The notes under the pieces: model-generated | The model's input: the letters and a program-made list of their open reading frames with translations, nothing else | The model's database searches: none | What the model was told of the DNA's origin: nothing | NCBI RefSeq assembly: GCF_003121705.1 | Contig: NZ_PYHR01000002.1 | Span: 434,001-498,000, forward strand | From: Serinibacter arcticus | GTDB taxonomy: Bacteria; Actinomycetota; Actinomycetes; Actinomycetales; Beutenbergiaceae | Reading direction: 5' to 3' | Length of the DNA: 64,000 nucleotides | Translations under genes and position numbers: made by a program | In this document: positions 4,546 to 61,359 of the stretch, in pieces | How positions within the stretch are numbered: position 1 is the stretch's first letter | How the letters are laid out: each line of letters starts with the position of its first letter

Positions 4546-5517
4546 ATGACGACGCGTTTCGGGTACACCCTCATGACCGAGCAGAGCGGGCCGCGCGAGC
4601 TGGTGCGGTACGCCGCGGCCGCCGAGGCGCTCGGGTTCGACTTCGAGGTCTCCAGCGACCACTACTCGCCCTGGCTGACCGAGCAGGGCCACTCGCCGTA
4701 CGCGTGGGCGGTCCTCGGCGCCGTCTCGCAGGTCACCGAGCGCGTCGAGCTCATGACGTACGTCACCTGCCCGACGATCCGGTACCACCCAGCCGTCGTG
4801 GCCCAGAAGGCCGCCACGCTCCAGCTCCTCAGCGACGGCCGGTTCACCCTCGGTCTCGGGTCGGGCGAGAACCTCAACGAGCACGTCGTGGGCGAGGGCT
4901 GGCCGTCCGTCGCCGTGCGGCAGGACATGCTCGAGGAGGCCGTCGAGATCATCCGCGAGCTCCACACCGGCGAGCTCGTCACCTACGACGGCGAGTACTT
5001 CCGCGTGGACTCGGCCCGGATCTGGGACCGTCCCGAGCAGGAGATCCCGATCGCGCTCGCCGTGTCGGGCGACGCCTCGATCGAGCGGTTCGCCCCGCTC
5101 GGCGACCACCTCATCACCACCGAGCCCAGTGCCGACCTCGTGAGCGCCTGGGACGCCCGCCACCCCGGCGGCGCCTCGCGCAAGATCGGCCAGGTGCCGA
5201 TCAGCTGGGACCCTGACCGGGACGTCGCGGTCCGACGGGCCCACGAGCAGTTCCGCTGGTCCTCGGGCGGCTGGAGCGTGAACGCCGATCTCCCGACGCC
5301 GGCGGGCTTCGCCGGGGCGTCGCAGTTCGTCAGGCCGCAGGACGTCGCCGAGTCGGTCGCCTGCGGGCCCGACCTGGACGAGCTGGCCGCGAGCGTACGG
5401 CCCTACCTCGAGGCCGGGTTCACCGACGTCGCCATCGTCCAGGTGGGCGACGAGGCGCAGCAGCGGTTCCTCGACGAGGCCGCCGGACCCCTGCTGGAGC
5501 GCCTGCGGGCGCTGTAG
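4546..5517 (+). CDS. LLM-class F420-dependent oxidoreductase (TIGR03557-like)
   Basis: The 323-residue TIM-barrel protein begins MTTRFGYTLMTEQSGPREL. It contains FDFEVSSDHYSPW, TCPTIRYHPAVVAQKAATL and FTLGLGSGENLNEHVVG. This is the pattern of the F420-dependent glucose-6-phosphate-dehydrogenase-like subgroup of bacterial luciferase-family oxidoreductases. It should use reduced or oxidised deazaflavin F420, but the substrate cannot be read from the sequence. The start ATG at 4546 follows CGGGAGTCGACG and was chosen over an upstream in-frame ATG at 4489. No F420 biosynthesis gene is in the window. Confidence 0.85.
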   Translation: MTTRFGYTLMTEQSGPRELVRYAAAAEALGFDFEVSSDHYSPWLTEQGHSPYAWAVLGAVSQVTERVELMTYVTCPTIRYHPAVVAQKAATLQLLSDGRFTLGLGSGENLNEHVVGEGWPSVAVRQDMLEEAVEIIRELHTGELVTYDGEYFRVDSARIWDRPEQEIPIALAVSGDASIERFAPLGDHLITTEPSADLVSAWDARHPGGASRKIGQVPISWDPDRDVAVRRAHEQFRWSSGGWSVNADLPTPAGFAGASQFVRPQDVAESVACGPDLDELAASVRPYLEAGFTDVAIVQVGDEAQQRFLDEAAGPLLERLRAL

Positions 5518-15923: not shown

Positions 15924-16876
15924 TCAGGCGTTGCGCTCGGACTGGCCCTCGCGCCAGTAGCCCATGAACGCCACGCGCTTGCGGTCGATCCCGCGGCCGG
16001 TGACCAGGGCCCGGCGCATCGCCTTGATGACGGCGGACTCGCCGGCGAGCCAGGCGTAGAGCTCGCCCGAGCCCACGGCCTCGGGCGACTCCCACAGGCC
16101 CTGGGTGTCGACGTCGACGTCGTCGAGGTTCTGGGGCCGGGGCGCCGCGGCGGCCGAGACGATCGCGGGGTGGTCGTCGAGCCAGCGCGTGACGGCCGGC
16201 AGCACGCGCTCGCCGACGCGCCGGCCGTCCCGGGGAGCCAGGTCACGGAGAACGAGGCCGGGTGGTCGACGGTCAGCACGTCCGCGGCGGTCGGCACCTC
16301 GATGAACGCGTGCACGTCGCGGCCGGCGGGCAGCATCTCCAGGATCGCGCAGATCGCGGGGGCGGCCGTCTCGTCGCCCGCCAGGAGCAGGTGGTGGGCC
16401 GTGCCCGGACGGAAGTCGATCCCGAGCGAGGACTGCTCCGAACGCCCGTCGGGGCCGACCAGCACGAGCTCGTCGCCCGGGACCGCGCGCTGGACCCAGC
16501 GCGAGGCCGGACCCATGTCGCCGTGGCAGACGAAGTCGACCGTGACGGTCCGCGCGGCGGTGTCGACCCGACGCACGGTGTAGGTGCGGATCGGGTTGCG
16601 ATCCTCGACGGGGGTGGCGCGCCAGGTCCCGTACCAGGCGAAGGCCTCGCTCTGCTCGTCGTCGTCGGCCCCGAGGTCGGCCAGACGGCCGTCGGGGAGC
16701 GGGAAGACGAGCTTGATGCGCTGGTCGAGGCGATCCGTCCCGAAGTGCTCGAACCGGGGCGAGGTGAACACGACGCGGAGGAAGTGCTCGCCGAGCGGCT
16801 GCACCGACTGCACCCGGGCGCGGTACGGCCGGCTCGCCGGCCTGGTGGCCGGGGCGAGGGAGCTCGGGACGGGCAT
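15924..16876 (-). pseudogene. Siderophore-interacting protein (FAD ferric-siderophore reductase) with a frameshift
   Basis: The N-terminal frame starts at ATG 16876. It has the FAD-binding PYRARVQSVQPLGEHFLRVV, NPIRTYTVRRVD and GPASRWVQRAVPGDEL segments, and the NAD-side LLLAGDETAAPAICAILEML. It reads to FSVTWLPG, where the frame breaks. One added base in the G4 run at 16232-16235 restores RDGRRVGERVLPAVTRWL and the end ALVTGRGIDRKRVAFMGYWR, typical of the family C-terminus. The full protein would be about 317 residues. It should reduce imported ferric siderophores in the cytoplasm, and an IdeR/DtxR-like box lies upstream. The break may be a sequencing undercall. Confidence 0.8.
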
Positions 16877-51946: not shown

Positions 51947-52913
51947 GGGCCACCCCCGTGAGGGCTGCGACGGCGCGCAGCCGCGTCAGGACGGCGTCGC
52001 GCAGGGGCGGCGGGTCCAGGACGACGACGGCATCGGTCTGGCCGGCCAGCAGCCCGGCGAGGTCCTCGACGTCGCCCAGCGACAGCTCGAGCACGTCCCA
52101 GCCCTCCCACTCCCCCGCGCCCGGCGTCGTGCTGCGGGCGCGCAGCCGGACCTCGGCGGCACGCTCGGGGCGGACGGCGACCGTGGCGGGTGCGGTCCGG
52201 GCCGACGAGTCCGACGGGCCCGTCGCGGCGCCTCCGCGCGGCGCCGTCGCGGAGCCCGCGGCCCCGACCTTCACCGAACCGGTGATGCGCGAGAGCCGGA
52301 ACAGCCGCTCGGCGTCGCGGACGAGGTCGTGACCCTGGACGTACCAGGCGCCGTCGCGCACGAGGAGTCGCCACGGCTCCACCCGGCGCTGCCCCGGGGC
52401 CGCCGAGGTCGCGGCACGGTAGGTGAACGTCACCGCGGCCCGGTCCTCGATCGCGGTCAGCAGCGGGTCGAAGGTCGCCGTCGGGGGTGGGATGCGCAGC
52501 ACGTGGCCGCTGAGCTCGGGCGACGCGGCCGGCGCGACGGCGCGCAGCTTCGTCAGCGCGCGCCGGGCCGGCAGGTCGAGGTGGGCGCCGTCCCAGACCT
52601 GGGCGGCGACGCTCAGCACACCGATCTCGGCCGGGGTGAGGTCGACGCGCGGCAGGTCGTAGCCGTCGAGGTCGATGCGGTAGCCGATGTCGTCGCCGTG
52701 GGCGTCGTCGGTGAGGGTGACCAGCGGGATGCCGAGCTCCCGGAGGGTCACCTTGTCGCGCTCGAACATGCGCTCGAACGCGTCGTCGTTGCTCGCCTGC
52801 GAGTAGCCGTTCACGGTGGACCGGACGTCCTGCTTGGTCATCCGGTGCTCGGTGTGGGTCAGCGCGATCACGAGGTCGAGGAGCCGTTCAGCCGGCGTCA
52901 CGGATGTGGACAT
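51939..52913 (-). CDS. pafB: PafB, WYL-domain regulator
   Basis: The 324-residue protein has an HTH of the PafB type (RLLDLVIALTHTEHRMTKQD, VRSTVNGYSQASNDDAFERM) and the WYL-domain DGAWYVQGHDLVRDAERLFR. A long Ala/Gly/Ser-rich linker follows near residue 225. It partners PafC in the DNA-damage response. The ATG at 52913 is used; a GTG immediately before it is also possible. The divergent gene starts 24 bases upstream, so a single short promoter region serves both. Confidence 0.92.
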   Translation of the reverse strand: MSTSVTPAERLLDLVIALTHTEHRMTKQDVRSTVNGYSQASNDDAFERMFERDKVTLRELGIPLVTLTDDAHGDDIGYRIDLDGYDLPRVDLTPAEIGVLSVAAQVWDGAHLDLPARRALTKLRAVAPAASPELSGHVLRIPPPTATFDPLLTAIEDRAAVTFTYRAATSAAPGQRRVEPWRLLVRDGAWYVQGHDLVRDAERLFRLSRITGSVKVGAAGSATAPRGGAATGPSDSSARTAPATVAVRPERAAEVRLRARSTTPGAGEWEGWDVLELSLGDVEDLAGLLAGQTDAVVVLDPPPLRDAVLTRLRAVAALTGVARG

Positions 52914-52936
52914 CACCGGCCAGCCTAGTGCGCGGC

Positions 52937-54475
52937 ATGATGGTCGCCATGATCATCTGGCGCGACGGCGTGGTGACGGCGACCGGAACGTCGTGGCGGG
53001 GTGCGGTGGAGCTGCGCGTGGAGATCACGGCTGGCCCGGCCGCACCGGTCTCGGTGGCCCCCGGGACGGTCGTCAAAGCGCTCGCCTACCCCGAGCTGGT
53101 CGGGACGCCACGGGTCGGCGACCGCGTCAGCCTCACCTGCTCGGCGCTGGCCCGCGGCCTCGGGACGGGGGGCTACGCGATGGTCGCGGCGATCCCCGAC
53201 GCGCTGCCCGCCGATCCGCCGCCCTCCCCCGGCCACCTCGTCAAGGCGCGCTACACGCCGCTCCAGTCCATGGTGCTCGGGGTCGACGAGCAGGAGTCCG
53301 ACTCCCACGCGGTGCTGGCCGACGCGGACGACCTCGGCGGGATGCCGGTCGTCGTCGCCGACCTGCACTCCGCGCTCCCGGCCGTCCTCGCGGGGCTGCG
53401 GGCCGAGGCCGCGGCCGCCGGCCGGCCCGCTCCCCGCGTCGCGTACGTGATGACCGACGGCGGGGCGCTGCCTGCCTGGTTCTCCCGCTCGCTCGCCCAG
53501 CTGCGCGAGGCGGGCTGGCTCGAGGCGTCCGTCACGGTCGGGCAGGCGTTCGGCGGCGACCTCGAGGCCGTCACGCTGCACTCGGGGCTGCTGGCCGCGA
53601 AGCACGTGCTCGGCGTCGACGTCGTGATCGTCGCGCAGGGGCCGGGCAACCTCGGGACGGGCACACGCTGGGGCTTCTCGGGCGTGGCCGCGGGCGAGGC
53701 GCTCAACGCCGTCGCGGTCCTGGGCGGCCGGGGGGTGGCATCGCTGCGGGTGTCCAACGCCGACGCGCGGGGGCGGCACCGGGGCGTCTCCCACCACTCG
53801 ACGACCGCCTACGGTCGCGTGGCGCTGGCGGCGAGCGACGTCGTCGTGCCGGTCTCCCACCACCGTCACGACGTGCCGGGCTGGGACGCGGACCTGGGTC
53901 GCTACGTGATGCTCTCGGCGCAGGAGATCACCGCGCCGCACACGCCGCACCGCCTCGTCCCGGTCCCGGTCGCGGGACTGGAGGTCGCGCTCCGGGACGT
54001 CCCGGTCCGGCTCTCCACGATGGGGCGGACGCTCCAGGACGATGCGACGCCGTTCCTCGCGGCCGCCGCCGCGGGGCGGTGGGCGGCGCGCCTGCTCGCC
54101 CCGGTGACGGGAACGATCTGGCACCTCGCGCTCGAGTCCGACTGGGCTCGCGCCGTCGAGCACGGGAGCTACGAGACGTCCACGCGCGACTGCCCGCTGG
54201 CCGAGGTCGGTTTCGTCCACGCGTCCCTGGACCACCAGGTCGACGGCGTGGCCGCGGCGGTGTACGGCGACCTCGCCGGATCCGGCGCCGTGCTGCTGGA
54301 GATCGACGCCGACGCGCTGGCTGCGGGCGGGGTGGCCGTGGTGCGCGAACCCGGCTCGCCCGACCAGAGCGGCGACCGGTTCCCGCACGTCTACGGCGCG
54401 GTCCCGGTGACGGCGGTCCGCGCGGTCCGGCCCTGGCGCGGGACGCTCGCGGCGACGACCGGCGCGGGGTCCTAG
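52937..54475 (+). CDS. DUF3866-DUF952 fusion protein
   Basis: The 512-residue protein has an N-terminal DUF3866 region of about 380 residues: MVLGVDEQESDSHAVLADAD, SLRVSNADARGRHRGVSHHS and VVPVSHHRHDVPGWDADLGR. A C-terminal DUF952 domain begins GTIWHLALESDWARAVEHGS and ends FPHVYGAVPVTAVRAVRPWR. DUF3866 is common in actinobacteria, often near PafBC. DUF952 is a small glutathione-S-transferase-like fold domain usually found as a separate protein. The fusion is unusual. The start of MMVAMIIWRDG at 52937 is chosen, and ATG at 52949 is an alternative. Its stop is within a 15-bp repeat array. Confidence 0.85.
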   Translation: MMVAMIIWRDGVVTATGTSWRGAVELRVEITAGPAAPVSVAPGTVVKALAYPELVGTPRVGDRVSLTCSALARGLGTGGYAMVAAIPDALPADPPPSPGHLVKARYTPLQSMVLGVDEQESDSHAVLADADDLGGMPVVVADLHSALPAVLAGLRAEAAAAGRPAPRVAYVMTDGGALPAWFSRSLAQLREAGWLEASVTVGQAFGGDLEAVTLHSGLLAAKHVLGVDVVIVAQGPGNLGTGTRWGFSGVAAGEALNAVAVLGGRGVASLRVSNADARGRHRGVSHHSTTAYGRVALAASDVVVPVSHHRHDVPGWDADLGRYVMLSAQEITAPHTPHRLVPVPVAGLEVALRDVPVRLSTMGRTLQDDATPFLAAAAAGRWAARLLAPVTGTIWHLALESDWARAVEHGSYETSTRDCPLAEVGFVHASLDHQVDGVAAAVYGDLAGSGAVLLEIDADALAAGGVAVVREPGSPDQSGDRFPHVYGAVPVTAVRAVRPWRGTLAATTGAGS

Positions 54476-56222: not shown

Positions 56223-57065
56223 TCAGAGGCGGGTCGCGTGGATCTGCGTGACGAGGATGGCGCGGGCGCCGATCTCGTAGAGCTCGTCCATGATCCGGTG
56301 GCTCGCGCGGCGCGGGACCATCACCCGGACGGCGGCCCAGCCGCGGTCGTGCAGCGGCGAGACGGTCGGCGACTCGAGGCCGGGCGAGATCTCGACGGCG
56401 CGGGCCACGCGCTCGACGGGGATGTCGTAGTCCATGAGGACGTACTCGCGGGCGGTCAGGACGCCGGCGATCCGGCGGTCGAGCGTGTCGAAGCCGGGGC
56501 GCGGGTCGCCGAGGGGGCGGATCAGCACGGCCTCGGAGGCGAGGATCTGGTCGCCGAAGGTCGACAGGCCGGCGGCCCGCAGGGTCGAGCCGGTCTCGAC
56601 GACGTCGGCGACGGCGTCGGCCACGCCGAGCTGGACCGTGGACTCGATCGCGCCGTCGAGGCGGACGACCTCGGCCGTCACGCCGCGGCCGGCGAGGTGG
56701 CGCTCGACCAGGACCTTGTACGACGTGGCGATGCGCTTGCCCTCGAGGTCCTCGACCGAGGTGATCTCGCTGGCCGGGGCCGCGAAGTGGAAGCTCGAGC
56801 GCGCGAACCCGAGGGCGCGGTGCTCGATGGCCTCGACGCCGGAGTCGATGAGCAGGTCGCGGCCGGTGATGCCGGCGTCCACCGTGCCCGAGCCGACGTA
56901 GACGGCGATGTCGCGCGGACGGAGGAAGAAGAACTCGACCTCGTTGTCCGCGTCGGTCAGGACGAGCTCACGGGAGTCGCGGCGCTGGCGGTAGCCCGCC
57001 TCGGTGAGCATGGTGGTGGCGGGCTCGCTGAGCGAACCCTTGTTCGGGACGGCGATACGAAGCAC
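56223..57065 (-). CDS. hisG: ATP phosphoribosyltransferase, long form
   Basis: The 280-residue enzyme joins ATP and PRPP in the first step of histidine synthesis. [20 protein letters not shown] opens the protein and [20 protein letters not shown] holds the active-site region. [19 protein letters not shown] is the PRPP-binding loop. The C-terminal HisG_C domain with ISPLHDRGW-like text ([20 protein letters not shown]) makes it the long, histidine-feedback type that does not need HisZ. GTG at 57065 follows hisE by 47 bases. Confidence 0.93.
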
Positions 57066-57112: not shown

Positions 57113-57376
57113 TCACAGATGTCGGTAGACGTCCTGCAGCGTCAGACCCTTCGCGATCATCATCACCTGGACGTGGTACAGCAGCTGCGAGATCTCCTCG
57201 GCCGCCTCCTGGTCGCTCTGGAACTCGGCGGCCATCCAGGACTCCGCCGCCTCCTCCACGAGCTTCTTGCCGATGAAGTGGACACCGGCGTCGAGCTCGG
57301 CGACGGTGCCGGAGCCCTCGGGGCGGGTGACCGCCTTCTCCGAGAGCTCGGCGAACAGGGATTCGAACGTCTTCAC
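57113..57376 (-). CDS. hisE: Phosphoribosyl-ATP pyrophosphatase
   Basis: The 87-residue enzyme removes pyrophosphate from phosphoribosyl-ATP in histidine synthesis. Its MazG-like core is [40 protein letters not shown] and [18 protein letters not shown] on the minus strand lies 6 bases before the GTG, indicating a leaderless mRNA and a separate promoter from the ribY-like gene 72 bases upstream. It leads hisG as in other actinobacteria. Confidence 0.93.
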
Positions 57377-57448: not shown

Positions 57449-58473
57449 TCAGCCCTCGTTCTCGACGGCGGCGTTGGTGTAGCCGCCGTCCGGAACGGCC
57501 GTGATCATGCCGGCCGCGAGCATCGCCTGCGCCATCGCGTCCCAGGTCGCCGGGTCGGTGGTGCCCGACGTGCTCAGCAGCGGGATCGTGGCCTCGAGCA
57601 CCGCGAGGGCGTCGGTGCGGGCGGACGCGGTCAGGCCCGGGATGTGCTCGCCGGCGATGTCGACGGCGGCCGCGGGATCGGCGATCGTCGCCTCGACCCC
57701 GCGCAGCGTCGCGGCCACGAACGCGGCCCGCTGGGCGTCGGTCAGGTCGCTGGTGTCCGGGAGGGCCACCCCGACGCTCACGAGGGCCTCGGGCTCGAGC
57801 GCCCGCACGGGCAGGTCCGCGGCGGCCAGGCGAACGGCGTCGCCGTTCACGTAGCCCATGACGGCGTCGACCTGATCGGTCAGCAGCGCGGACGTCTGCG
57901 TGAACCCGATCGAGGCGATCGTCACGTCGTCCGGGGTGAGCCCCGCGCCGTCGAGCAGCGTCAGGAGCCCGAGGTAGGTCGCCCCGAACTCGCCGGGGAC
58001 CCCGATCGTGAGCCCGGCGAGGTCAGCGGGCTCGGTGACGTCCGAGTCCTCGGGGACGAGCAGCGCCACCGGCGAGGTGTCGTACAGCGTGGTGATCTGC
58101 ACCAGGTCGCCGCCCGCCGCGCGCTGGGCGAGGACCTCGTCCCCGCTCGCGACGACGAGGTCCTCCTCGCCCTGCTCGATCGCGGTGAACAGGCCCTCGT
58201 TGGCGCCGTGGTGGCGCAGCGTGACGTCGAACCCGGCCTCGTCGTAGTAGCCGTTGGCCTCGGCGACGTAGAAGGGGGCGAACTGGATGTCGGGGACGTA
58301 GGTGAGCCCGACGGTGACGGCGGTGGCCGCGCCGGTCCCGCCGTCGGAGGGTCGGAGGGGCTCGGGGTGCCGGACGGGTCGGACGCGGTCGAACAGGCGA
58401 CCAGGACGAGCGCCGCGGCCGCGGACGCCGCGACGAGCAGGGACGTGCGGCGGGGGCGGGCGGGAACGATCAC
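57449..58473 (-). pseudogene. ribY: ABC transporter substrate-binding lipoprotein, RibY/NMT1-THI5-like, with a frameshift
   Basis: GTG at 58473 follows GGAG and starts a lipoprotein signal (SLLVAASAAAALVLVAC) with a lipobox LVAC. The frame reaches SGTPSPSDPP. One extra base in a C run at 58349-58360 then restores TAVTVGLTYVPDIQFAPFYV and GANEGLFTAIEQGEEDLVVA, through [20 protein letters not shown]. This is the NMT1/THI5 solute-binding fold. With an FMN riboswitch upstream, it is best read as RibY, which binds riboflavin, rather than the thiamine-precursor ThiY. The repaired length is about 341 residues. It follows the permease gene by 68 bases. Confidence 0.8.
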
Positions 58474-58541
58474 GGGGTTCTCCGGTGGGTCGGTGGGGCG
58501 GTGGGGTGCCGGTGCGGGTGCCGAGCCGTGCGGGGCTCGGC

Positions 58542-59321
58542 TCATCGCTCGGTCATCCGAGCGGCGCGCTGCTCGAGCAGGCGAACGATCGCGTAGGCGG
58601 TCATGGACGTGAGGGTGAGCACGACGAGGGTCGCGAAGAGGCCCGCCGTGTCGTTGCGGGTGCGCTGGGACTCGAGCAGTTGGCCGAGTCCTCGACCGCC
58701 GATGACGAACTCCCCGACGACGGCGCCCGTCATCGCCAGCGCGACCCCGGCCCGGAGGCCGGCGAGGAACTGGGGCAGGGCGAGCGGGGTCTCGATGTGG
58801 CGCAGCAGCCGCCAGGTGCCGGCACCGTCGACGCGCGCCGCGGCCAGCACCTCGGGGTCGAGCCCGCGCAGCCCGAGCGCCGTCGTGATCACGATCGGGA
58901 AGAAGACGAGCAGGGCGGCGAGCAGCGCCGTCGTTCCCGGTCCGTAGCCGAACCACAGGACGAGGAGCGGCGCGATCGCGACGGCGGGGATCGCCTGCGA
59001 GGCGGCGAGGTAGGGCTCCAGGGCGGCGGCCGCCGGGCGGGAGTGGACGATGAGCCACGCGAGCGGGAGGGCGACGACGACCGCGAGCAGCGCCCCCTGG
59101 GCCGCCACTCCCCCGGTCGCGCCGATGGCGGGCCAGAGATCACCGGTGGCGGCGAGCTCGCCCAGGGCGCGGACGACGGCGCTCGGCGCGGGGAGCAGGA
59201 CCGCCCCCAGTCGCCCGGCCCCCCAGGTCCACGCGAGAAGGATCGCGACGGCGAGGACGACGGCGGGCAGCACGCCGGCGGCGCCCGCGGCACCCGCGGC
59301 CCTGTCTGTTCGCCTGGTCAC
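58542..59321 (-). CDS. ribX: ABC transporter permease, RibX-like riboflavin uptake
   Basis: The 259-residue protein has five to six transmembrane helices. Its EAA motif is EVLAAARVDGAGTWRLLRHI, followed by ETPLALPQFLAGLRAGVALA. It belongs to the BPD-type permeases such as SsuC/TauC. The GTG at 59321 has GGGAGGG about 7 bases upstream. It is the first gene after an FMN riboswitch (59436-59578), strongly suggesting it imports riboflavin with the RibY-like lipoprotein. No ATPase gene is adjacent, so an ATPase encoded elsewhere must serve it. Confidence 0.85.
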   Translation of the reverse strand: MTRRTDRAAGAAGAAGVLPAVVLAVAILLAWTWGAGRLGAVLLPAPSAVVRALGELAATGDLWPAIGATGGVAAQGALLAVVVALPLAWLIVHSRPAAAALEPYLAASQAIPAVAIAPLLVLWFGYGPGTTALLAALLVFFPIVITTALGLRGLDPEVLAAARVDGAGTWRLLRHIETPLALPQFLAGLRAGVALAMTGAVVGEFVIGGRGLGQLLESQRTRNDTAGLFATLVVLTLTSMTAYAIVRLLEQRAARMTER

Positions 59322-59435
59322 TCGTCACCCTCCCGAAATCGCGTCATCGCGTTCCGGGGTGACGGGGTGCGCGAGCGCACCACGCGGGTGCACCGGACGG
59401 GCGCGCTGCGGGTGCAGCACGTCGCCGACGCACCT

Positions 59436-59578
59436 CGTGCTTCCTCCCATCCGGACTTTCACCGTCGGTCCTGGAGTTCCACCAGGTCAACCGCACCCGG
59501 TCCGAGGACTGGCCTCGTCTCAGGTGCGGGTCGCGGACTGTCACCGCCGGCTCGGACTTTCACCGACCCCGGAGCACG
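59436..59578 (-). promoter_or_regulatory. FMN riboswitch (RFN element)
   Basis: Read on the minus strand, the region contains GGTCGGTGAAAGTCCGAGCC, CCGGCGGTGACAGTCCGCGA, GGTTGACCTGGTGGAACTCC and CCGACGGTGAAAGTCCGGAT with GGGAGGAAGC. These are the conserved FMN-aptamer segments in order. P1 closes by CGTGCT (59578-59573) with AGCACG (59441-59436). It precedes the ribX-like gene by 114 bases. Inside that span GGTGCGC-GA-GCGCACC (59366-59381) can form an expression-platform hairpin. FMN binding should switch off transporter expression. Confidence 0.95.
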
Positions 59579-59726
59579 TGTGTGTTCTGGGAGCAGAATA
59601 CCGCGTCGGCGACCGCTACCGTCGTCCACGGCGCGGAGTCGTCCGGTTCGTGGACGCCTCGATCCCGTCGTCGCGTTCACGCGGGCGGGGACCGCGCGGT
59701 CGAGACGGTCGAGAGAAGGAGCGGGC

Positions 59727-60605
59727 ATGGCACGGGTCGGGATCATCGTCACGGACGGCTACTCGGTGGAGGACCCCGACGTCGACACCCCGCTGCTCCT
59801 CCCGGCGCTGCGCGAGCTCGGGCTGGACGCGGAGGCGACGGTCTGGCACGCCGACCTCGACTGGGCCGGCTACGACCTGCTCGTCCTCCGGAGCCCGTGG
59901 GACTACCCGCGACGGGTCGCGGAGTTCACCGCGTGGTTCGAGCGAGTCCAGCGGGTCACCCGGGTGCTGAACGAGCCGGCGCTCGTGCACTGGAACCTCG
60001 ACAAGCGCTATCTCGCCGAGCTGGCCGAGCGCGGGATCGGCGTCGTCCCGACCTCGTACGCGACCACGACGGCCGAGGTCGCCGCGGCCCTGGCCCCCCA
60101 CGGCGCCGGCTGGGTGGTGGTCAAGCCGTCCGTGTCGGCGGGGGCCCACGACACGGCACTGGTGCGGGCCGACTCCCCCGAGGCGGCCGAGCTCACCGGA
60201 CGCATCGTCGGCCGCGGCGCGACCGTGATGGTGCAGCCCGAGGTGCCGGAGCTGTCGCACGGGGCCGAGAAGGCGCTGTACCTCGTCGACGGCGAGCTCA
60301 CCCACGCCGTCGCGAAGGGCGCCCTGCTCGAGCGCGGGGGCGGCTTCATCGGCGGGGTCTACCAGGAGACGCCGCAGCTCGTGCCGACGACCGACGACGA
60401 GGTCGCCTTCGCCGGCGCGACGATGGCGGCCATCGCCGACGCGACCGGGTTGGAGACCCCGCTGTACGCGCGGATCGACACGGTGCTCAGCGCCGAGCAC
60501 GGCCTGGTGCTGCTGGAGGCGGAGCTGTTCGAGCCGACGTTCAACCTCCACCTCGTGCCGGAGGTCGTCCAGCGCTTCGCGGCGGCCGTTGCCGCGCGGG
60601 TGTGA
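59727..60605 (+). CDS. ATP-grasp family protein
   Basis: The 292-residue protein has an N-terminal segment (MARVGIIVTDGYSVEDPDVD) and an ATP-grasp core: LVHWNLDKRYLAELAERGIG, GWVVVKPSVSAGAHDTALV, VMVQPEVPELSHGAEKALYL and the C-terminal VLLEAELFEPTFNLHL metal ligands. Members ligate a carboxylate to an amine or thiol, and the substrates are unknown. AAGGAGCGGGC precedes the ATG. It is the first gene beyond the FMN riboswitch on the opposite strand, and a 13-bp repeat follows its stop. Confidence 0.82.
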   Translation: MARVGIIVTDGYSVEDPDVDTPLLLPALRELGLDAEATVWHADLDWAGYDLLVLRSPWDYPRRVAEFTAWFERVQRVTRVLNEPALVHWNLDKRYLAELAERGIGVVPTSYATTTAEVAAALAPHGAGWVVVKPSVSAGAHDTALVRADSPEAAELTGRIVGRGATVMVQPEVPELSHGAEKALYLVDGELTHAVAKGALLERGGGFIGGVYQETPQLVPTTDDEVAFAGATMAAIADATGLETPLYARIDTVLSAEHGLVLLEAELFEPTFNLHLVPEVVQRFAAAVAARV

Positions 60606-60693: not shown

Positions 60694-61359
60694 TCAGTGG
60701 CGGTGCGCGCCCTCGGCGAGGCCGCGCAGGGCCTCGACCTCGGCGGCGGCGTCCTCGGCCTTGTAGACGGCCGACCCGGCGACGAACGTGTCGGCCCCCG
60801 CTTCGGCGGCGCGCTCGATCGTCTCGCGCGAGACCCCACCGTCGACCTGGATCCAGAGGTCGAGGTCCTGCTCGGTCACGGCCCGCCGCGCGGCGCGGAT
60901 CTTCGGCAGCATCGAGTCCAGGAAGGACTGGCCACCGAAGCCGGGCTCGACGGTCATGATCAGGAGCATGTCGATCTCGGGCAGCAGCTCGAGGAACGGG
61001 TCCACCCCGGTCGTGGGACGCAGTGCCAGCCCGGCACGGGCACCCTGACGACGCAGCTCGCGCGCGAGTCGGATCGGCGCCGCGGCGGCCTCGGCGTGGA
61101 ACGTCACGGACTGCGCCCCGGCCTCGGCGTAGGCGGGCGCCCACCGGTCGGGGTCGGCGATCATCAGGTGGATGTCGAGCGGGACCGGGCTCACGGGGAG
61201 GATCGCCTCGACCACCGGCAGACCCCACGTGAGGTTCGGCACGAAGTGGTTGTCCATCACGTCGACGTGGGCCCAGTCGGCCCCCGCGATCTTCGCGAGC
61301 TCGCCGCGCAGGTCGGAGACGTCGGAGTTCAGGATGCTCGGCGTGATTCGGATTCCCAC
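60694..61359 (-). CDS. rpe: Ribulose-phosphate 3-epimerase
   Basis: The 221-residue TIM barrel interconverts ribulose-5-phosphate and xylulose-5-phosphate in the pentose-phosphate pathway. Active-site residues appear in [30 protein letters not shown] (Asp and His), [20 protein letters not shown] and [15 protein letters not shown] box lies 6 bases before the GTG at 61359, so the mRNA is probably leaderless. In relatives it is close to rsmB; here an HNH nuclease gene and a GNAT gene have intervened. Confidence 0.95.

Follow-up and report, generated by a model that had tools for sequence, protein, structure and literature searches.

Can an FMN riboswitch followed by two transporter genes, one of them interrupted by a frame break, and by no gene for an ATPase represent a working supply of riboflavin? 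The question is raised by a minus-strand locus of Serinibacter arcticus (the host) that lies in a 64-kb window, the whole stretch of DNA analysed here. An initial annotation, made from the letters alone, had read it as a RibXY-like riboflavin importer headed by an RFN aptamer. On the evidence described below, we consider it highly probable that the locus encodes a RibXY riboflavin importer controlled by an FMN riboswitch at the level of translation, that an ATPase encoded elsewhere powers it, that it is probably the sole riboflavin supply of the host, and that the frameshift in ribY is probably an assembly error.

The riboswitch and the ribXY pair

The aptamer of the FMN riboswitch (RFN element) extends over 59434..59580 on the minus strand. 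It is complete, as previously claimed: the match to RF00050 covers positions 1-138 of the 138 of the model and scores 85.9 bits (E 3.7e-18), above the gathering score of 66.2 bits. The limits first proposed for the unit, 57449-59578, also fit, with the riboswitch reaching two bases further. No Rfam match other than RF00050 was found in the window, hence no TPP aptamer, and the riboswitch of ribXY is the single FMN riboswitch in the host genome.

Behind the riboswitch lies ribX (58542..59321, minus strand), which encodes an ABC importer permease (PF00528, 97.6 bits). RibX does not reach any curated NCBIfam equivalog; the permeases closest to it there, SaoP, SsuC and TauC, match far under their cut-offs. 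The co-directional ribY gene consists, as sequenced, of a 5' part identified by reading the sequence (58334..58473, minus strand), with start, signal peptide, lipobox and linker, and of a mature substrate-binding domain of the NMT1/THI5 family in another frame (57449..58333, minus strand; PF09084 NMT1, 133.7 bits), open to the stop codon. Hence, the riboswitch does head a permease and an NMT1/THI5-type lipoprotein, and the locus combines the features of RibXY: a permease of the sulfonate/nitrate/taurine class, a co-directional NMT1-type binding protein and an FMN riboswitch upstream. Identity to orthologues is 46-92% for RibX, over the aligned core, and 39-82% for RibY; for RibY of three Chloroflexi MAG loci (L180, L201 and L205) it is 47-49%. 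The published threshold for RibY is at least 38% identity to the Chloroflexus protein (PMC4418817).

The closest solved structure to RibY is ThiY (3ix1, E 1.7e-23), which binds a thiamine precursor and belongs to the same NMT1/THI5 family, and one may ask whether the locus encodes a ThiY-type thiamine-precursor importer that stands behind an FMN riboswitch by chance. This appears very improbable: the window lacks a TPP riboswitch, the neighbours of the pair are rpe, hisE and hisG, with no thiamine genes, the FMN riboswitch is retained at the orthologous place in 26 of the 29 permease loci fetched, and the ribXY riboswitch is the only one left in those genomes of the family that lack rib genes. 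Neither of the two outcomes that had been named as fatal to a riboflavin importer, absence of an RF00050 match on the minus strand or a ThiY accompanied by a TPP aptamer, was encountered.

The leader of ribX was examined for the mode of control. In the window, folding of the 62 bases that precede the ribX start gives a hairpin in which the ribosome-binding site is paired; this predicted expression platform (59323..59364, minus strand), identified by folding and an arm-swap test, sequesters the Shine-Dalgarno sequence immediately ahead of the start codon, GGGAGGG. By folding, a hairpin that buries the Shine-Dalgarno sequence is present in all 22 leaders considered (the window and 21 relatives), despite differing arm sequences. 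Because a MAFFT alignment of the hairpins placed gaps in the wrong arm, the arms were swapped between leaders instead. In 18 leaders, the mean was -20.5 kcal/mol with their own arms and -15.8 kcal/mol with swapped ones, and none of 20,000 permutations was as stable as the own arms, a result that is to be taken as support and not as proof, since the arms were hand-picked and the species are related.

A conserved hairpin with co-varying arms that buries the ribX Shine-Dalgarno sequence suggests that FMN would probably block translation. Transcription termination was discarded as the switching mode, as no terminator-like site was detected. A translational OFF switch is thus the best reading of the leader, the direction of switching being presumed. 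When the entire leader was folded without constraints and searched for duplexes, a possible, unproven pairing emerged between the 5' arm of the hairpin and the aptamer; the anti-sequestor, in which that arm would be paired elsewhere when FMN is absent, can only be sketched.

Riboflavin supply and gene neighbourhood

A genome search for rib genes had been recommended along with the initial reading. In a profile search, the host genome proved to lack both lumazine synthase (PF00885) and DHBP synthase (PF00926). The corresponding genes, ribH and ribB, are both missing in the same 10 of 24 family members, the host and nine others, one of which (G023) is a draft with 92% completeness. Each of these ten genomes carries exactly one FMN riboswitch, while two are found in 13 of the 14 members that possess ribH. 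The family is therefore split into riboflavin makers, usually carrying a pair of FMN riboswitches, and pure importers, whose single riboswitch stands on ribXY. In a sample taken at the level of the order, four more genomes lack both rib genes: three of them (G026, G042 and G058) have an ECF-type gene directly behind an FMN riboswitch, and the fourth (G054) likewise has a PnuC/RibM-type gene. Within these genomes, the riboswitch thus remains with an importer where synthesis is absent.

Alternative riboflavin importers were sought in the host genome and discarded: no RibM-type match (PF04973) was detected, and none to the ECF family (PF12822) exceeded the cut-off, the weak match at G000:C2:1172653 (25.0 bits) falling under it. 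The flavokinase RibF is encoded. Given that synthesis genes and other recognised importers are lacking and that RibF is present, RibXY is probably the only riboflavin supply of the host, which, judging from its gene content, seems unable to make vitamin B2. That the substrate would be riboflavin is deduced from the riboswitch, from the gene-content pattern and from published complementation: the cloned two-gene operon of Chloroflexus RibXY restored low-riboflavin growth of an Escherichia coli riboflavin auxotroph (PMC4418817). Actinobacteria that possess RibXY are also recorded in that study, some with riboflavin synthesis and others lacking it. The proposal of a RibXY-type importer under FMN control is therefore supported, its substrate by inference. 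Import-only genomes of this kind would be natural auxotrophs with a single importer, and as such usable for testing.

A tentative scheme can be drawn as follows. The RibY lipoprotein would bind riboflavin outside the cell, a RibX dimer would move it through the membrane, and an ATPase encoded at another place in the genome would power the transport cycle. RibF would then make FMN and FAD from the riboflavin brought in. When plentiful, FMN would bind the aptamer, the hairpin ahead of ribX would form and bury the ribosome-binding site, and uptake would drop; when FMN is absent, the 5' arm of the hairpin would be held in another pairing, permitting translation of ribX.

About 20 relatives have conserved the ribXY pair under its FMN riboswitch, in most cases flanked by rpe on one side and hisE-hisG on the other. 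In the window, the conserved upstream neighbour rpe (ribulose-phosphate 3-epimerase; 60694..61359, minus strand; TIGR01163, 251.1 bits) is accompanied downstream by hisE (phosphoribosyl-ATP diphosphatase; 57113..57376, minus strand; NF001610, 156.9 bits) and hisG (ATP phosphoribosyltransferase; 56223..57065, minus strand; TIGR00070, 181.5 bits). In 19 of 23 orthologous loci, hisE-hisG follow ribXY directly and on the same strand, and they are found directly behind ribH in 10 of 30 ribH loci. The two arrangements together make a riboflavin unit before hisE-hisG a recurrent gene arrangement within the taxonomic order of the host. In some families the slot ahead of hisE-hisG is occupied by synthesis genes, whereas the family of the host has the importer there. 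The idea that the riboflavin route meets histidine genes at this place consequently holds for conserved gene order; it does not extend to regulation, as a translational switch acting on ribX does not imply FMN control of hisE-hisG.

Two additional observations concern the surroundings. A divergent gene upstream of the riboswitch (59727-60605, plus strand) encodes a product of 292 aa that has relatives in the genus and no Pfam match, and that by eye has an ATP-grasp-type look. At 52904-54475 of the window (plus strand), a DUF3866 domain (400 bits) and a DUF952 domain share one open frame of 523 aa.

The frame break in ribY and the missing ATPase

As sequenced, ribY is not a single open frame from start to stop. 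The signal peptide and the lipobox (...LVLVACSTAS) are read from a GTG at 58473, and the frame of the mature domain, which ends at 57449, is a different one; the junction lies in the linker, at about 58335-58360. The frame break that had been noticed initially is therefore present in the sequence, and two explanations had been offered for it: a sequencing casualty or a recently lost transporter.

The sister genome G002 has an intact ribY. In another genome of the genus, G001, which is 95% complete, ribY carries a different, independent frameshift (locus L033, about 5177-5201). Programmed frameshifting was discarded on these grounds: the gene is intact in one genome and broken elsewhere in the other, and nothing similar is conserved. 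When the window was scanned for frame breaks against an 80-kb stretch of G002 that surrounds the same genes, one further break in a conserved gene was detected. The gene for a siderophore-interacting protein (PF08021, PF04954; 15930-16846 of the window, minus strand) has its break near 16233, next to a C/G run, and is intact in G002. Two ABC permease genes at other places in the host genome, L269 (G000:C2:2246814) and L270 (G000:C2:785198), are also split. All these frame breaks, which affect at least three genes besides ribY, coincide with or adjoin runs of C or G, and suggest an assembly with frequent single-base indels.

If the ribY frameshift were a true mutation, the transporter would be in the course of being lost and flavins would be obtained in another way. 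The fact that ribY as sequenced cannot give an exported protein is in line with such a loss, and so is the independent frameshift in G001. We deem it quite unlikely, however: the host has neither riboflavin synthesis genes nor another recognised importer and should need this one, the mature domain is conserved and remains open for about 295 codons, neither the riboswitch nor ribX is damaged, and comparable breaks at G/C runs occur in other genes of the host. At 95% completeness, G001 itself would fit a draft with indels. The similar breaks at G/C runs and the probable dependence on the importer thus favour an assembly error, and an indel introduced during assembly is the most probable origin of the ribY frameshift.

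The lack of a local ATPase admits a different explanation. No ABC ATPase was found in the 9-12 kb fetched around 23 orthologous ribXY loci, and in 80 further RibY loci from Actinobacteria and Chloroflexi none adjoins ribXY; any ATPase at all is present in only two of the 80, more than 4 kb away in both cases, some of these loci being shortened by contig ends. Two fetched loci (L054 and L055) do hold an ATPase, and they represent distant systems with a permease 37-43% identical and no riboswitch. In the literature, a few Chloroflexi do have an ATP-binding gene together with ribXY (PMC4418817). Most members of the group are thus units without an ATPase, and its absence across the orthologous and the 80 further loci is a property of RibXY and not a loss. 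The initial claim of an importer devoid of a local ATPase is borne out by these loci, which also support, by inference, an ATPase supplied from elsewhere. As the absence holds as a rule across many genera, conserved among them, the driving ATPase can be sought genetically.

Which ATPase might serve RibXY was then considered at the genome level. An orphan of the SsuB/TauB type had been anticipated; however, the four ATPases of this class in the host genome (C2:813498, 2088033, 2529738 and 3284932) all adjoin a permease of their own. RibXY might still borrow the ATPase of a co-resident system of the NitT/TauT type, for which we see an even chance: the four ATPases are of the same class as the RibX permease, and G025, a genome that has ribXY and no rib genes, encodes one ATPase of the NitT type, next to a binding protein of its own. 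On the other hand, each of the host ATPases has its adjacent permease, and no single orthologue has been established as common to all ribXY genomes. The best NitT-type ATPase of G025 resembled an orphan at first, but was rejected as one because its neighbours are a binding protein and a fragment of a permease.

Another candidate is the UgpC/MsiK-like ATPase G000:C2:1712344, an orphan that RibXY would share with sugar importers. Multitask, interchangeable ATPases are established among sugar importers and provide a precedent for sharing (PMC7658222). Among the host ATPases examined, G000:C2:1712344 is the best-scoring one without a PF00528 permease nearby, and G025 contains an orphan orthologue 70% identical to it, next to which no membrane protein was found. 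Actinobacteria commonly have MsiK irrespective of ribXY, so that co-occurrence is weak evidence, and the permease class of RibX (sulfonate/nitrate/taurine) has ATPases of its own, which the host likewise encodes. Service by this particular ATPase is possible, on the improbable side. A broader speculation, which we regard as doubtful, is that RibXY of Actinobacteria and Chloroflexi may be designed without an ATPase and depend on a general-purpose one that other importers use as well, perhaps the sugar ATPase MsiK; if true, the vitamin B2 supply of the auxotrophs would hang on a sugar-uptake motor.

The genome searches also returned three permease matches with identical scores (G000:C2:729167, 2324018 and 2788449), each accompanied by a neighbouring partner permease of equal score, which suggests a transporter cassette in three copies.

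Relation to known systems

The ThiXYZ importer of thiamine precursors shares the NMT1/THI5 family with the host system, ThiY (3ix1) being the closest solved relative of RibY. The host differs from it in having an FMN riboswitch in place of a TPP aptamer and in lacking a local ATPase. RfuABCD of spirochaetes likewise performs ABC-type riboflavin uptake; it is a four-gene system, however, that includes an ATPase and has a binding protein of another type. The multitask ATPases MsiK and MsmX (PMC7658222) serve ABC importer operons that, like ribXY, have no ATPase of their own, although their known clients are sugar importers and RibXY would be a hypothetical one.

The closest likeness is to RibXY as described in Actinobacteria, Chloroflexi and Thermobaculum, with Chloroflexus aurantiacus Caur_0816-0817 as the example (PMC4418817): the same FMN riboswitch precedes the same COG0600-type permease and COG0715/NMT1-type binding protein in a two-gene operon without an ATPase gene. 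The host locus differs in its setting, with rpe before and hisE-hisG after the pair, in its frameshifted ribY, and in the documentation of a hairpin that sequesters the Shine-Dalgarno sequence. RibXY having been published, Actinobacteria included, the host system is an ordinary one of a described kind, and the hairpin that buries the ribX Shine-Dalgarno sequence is the new detail.
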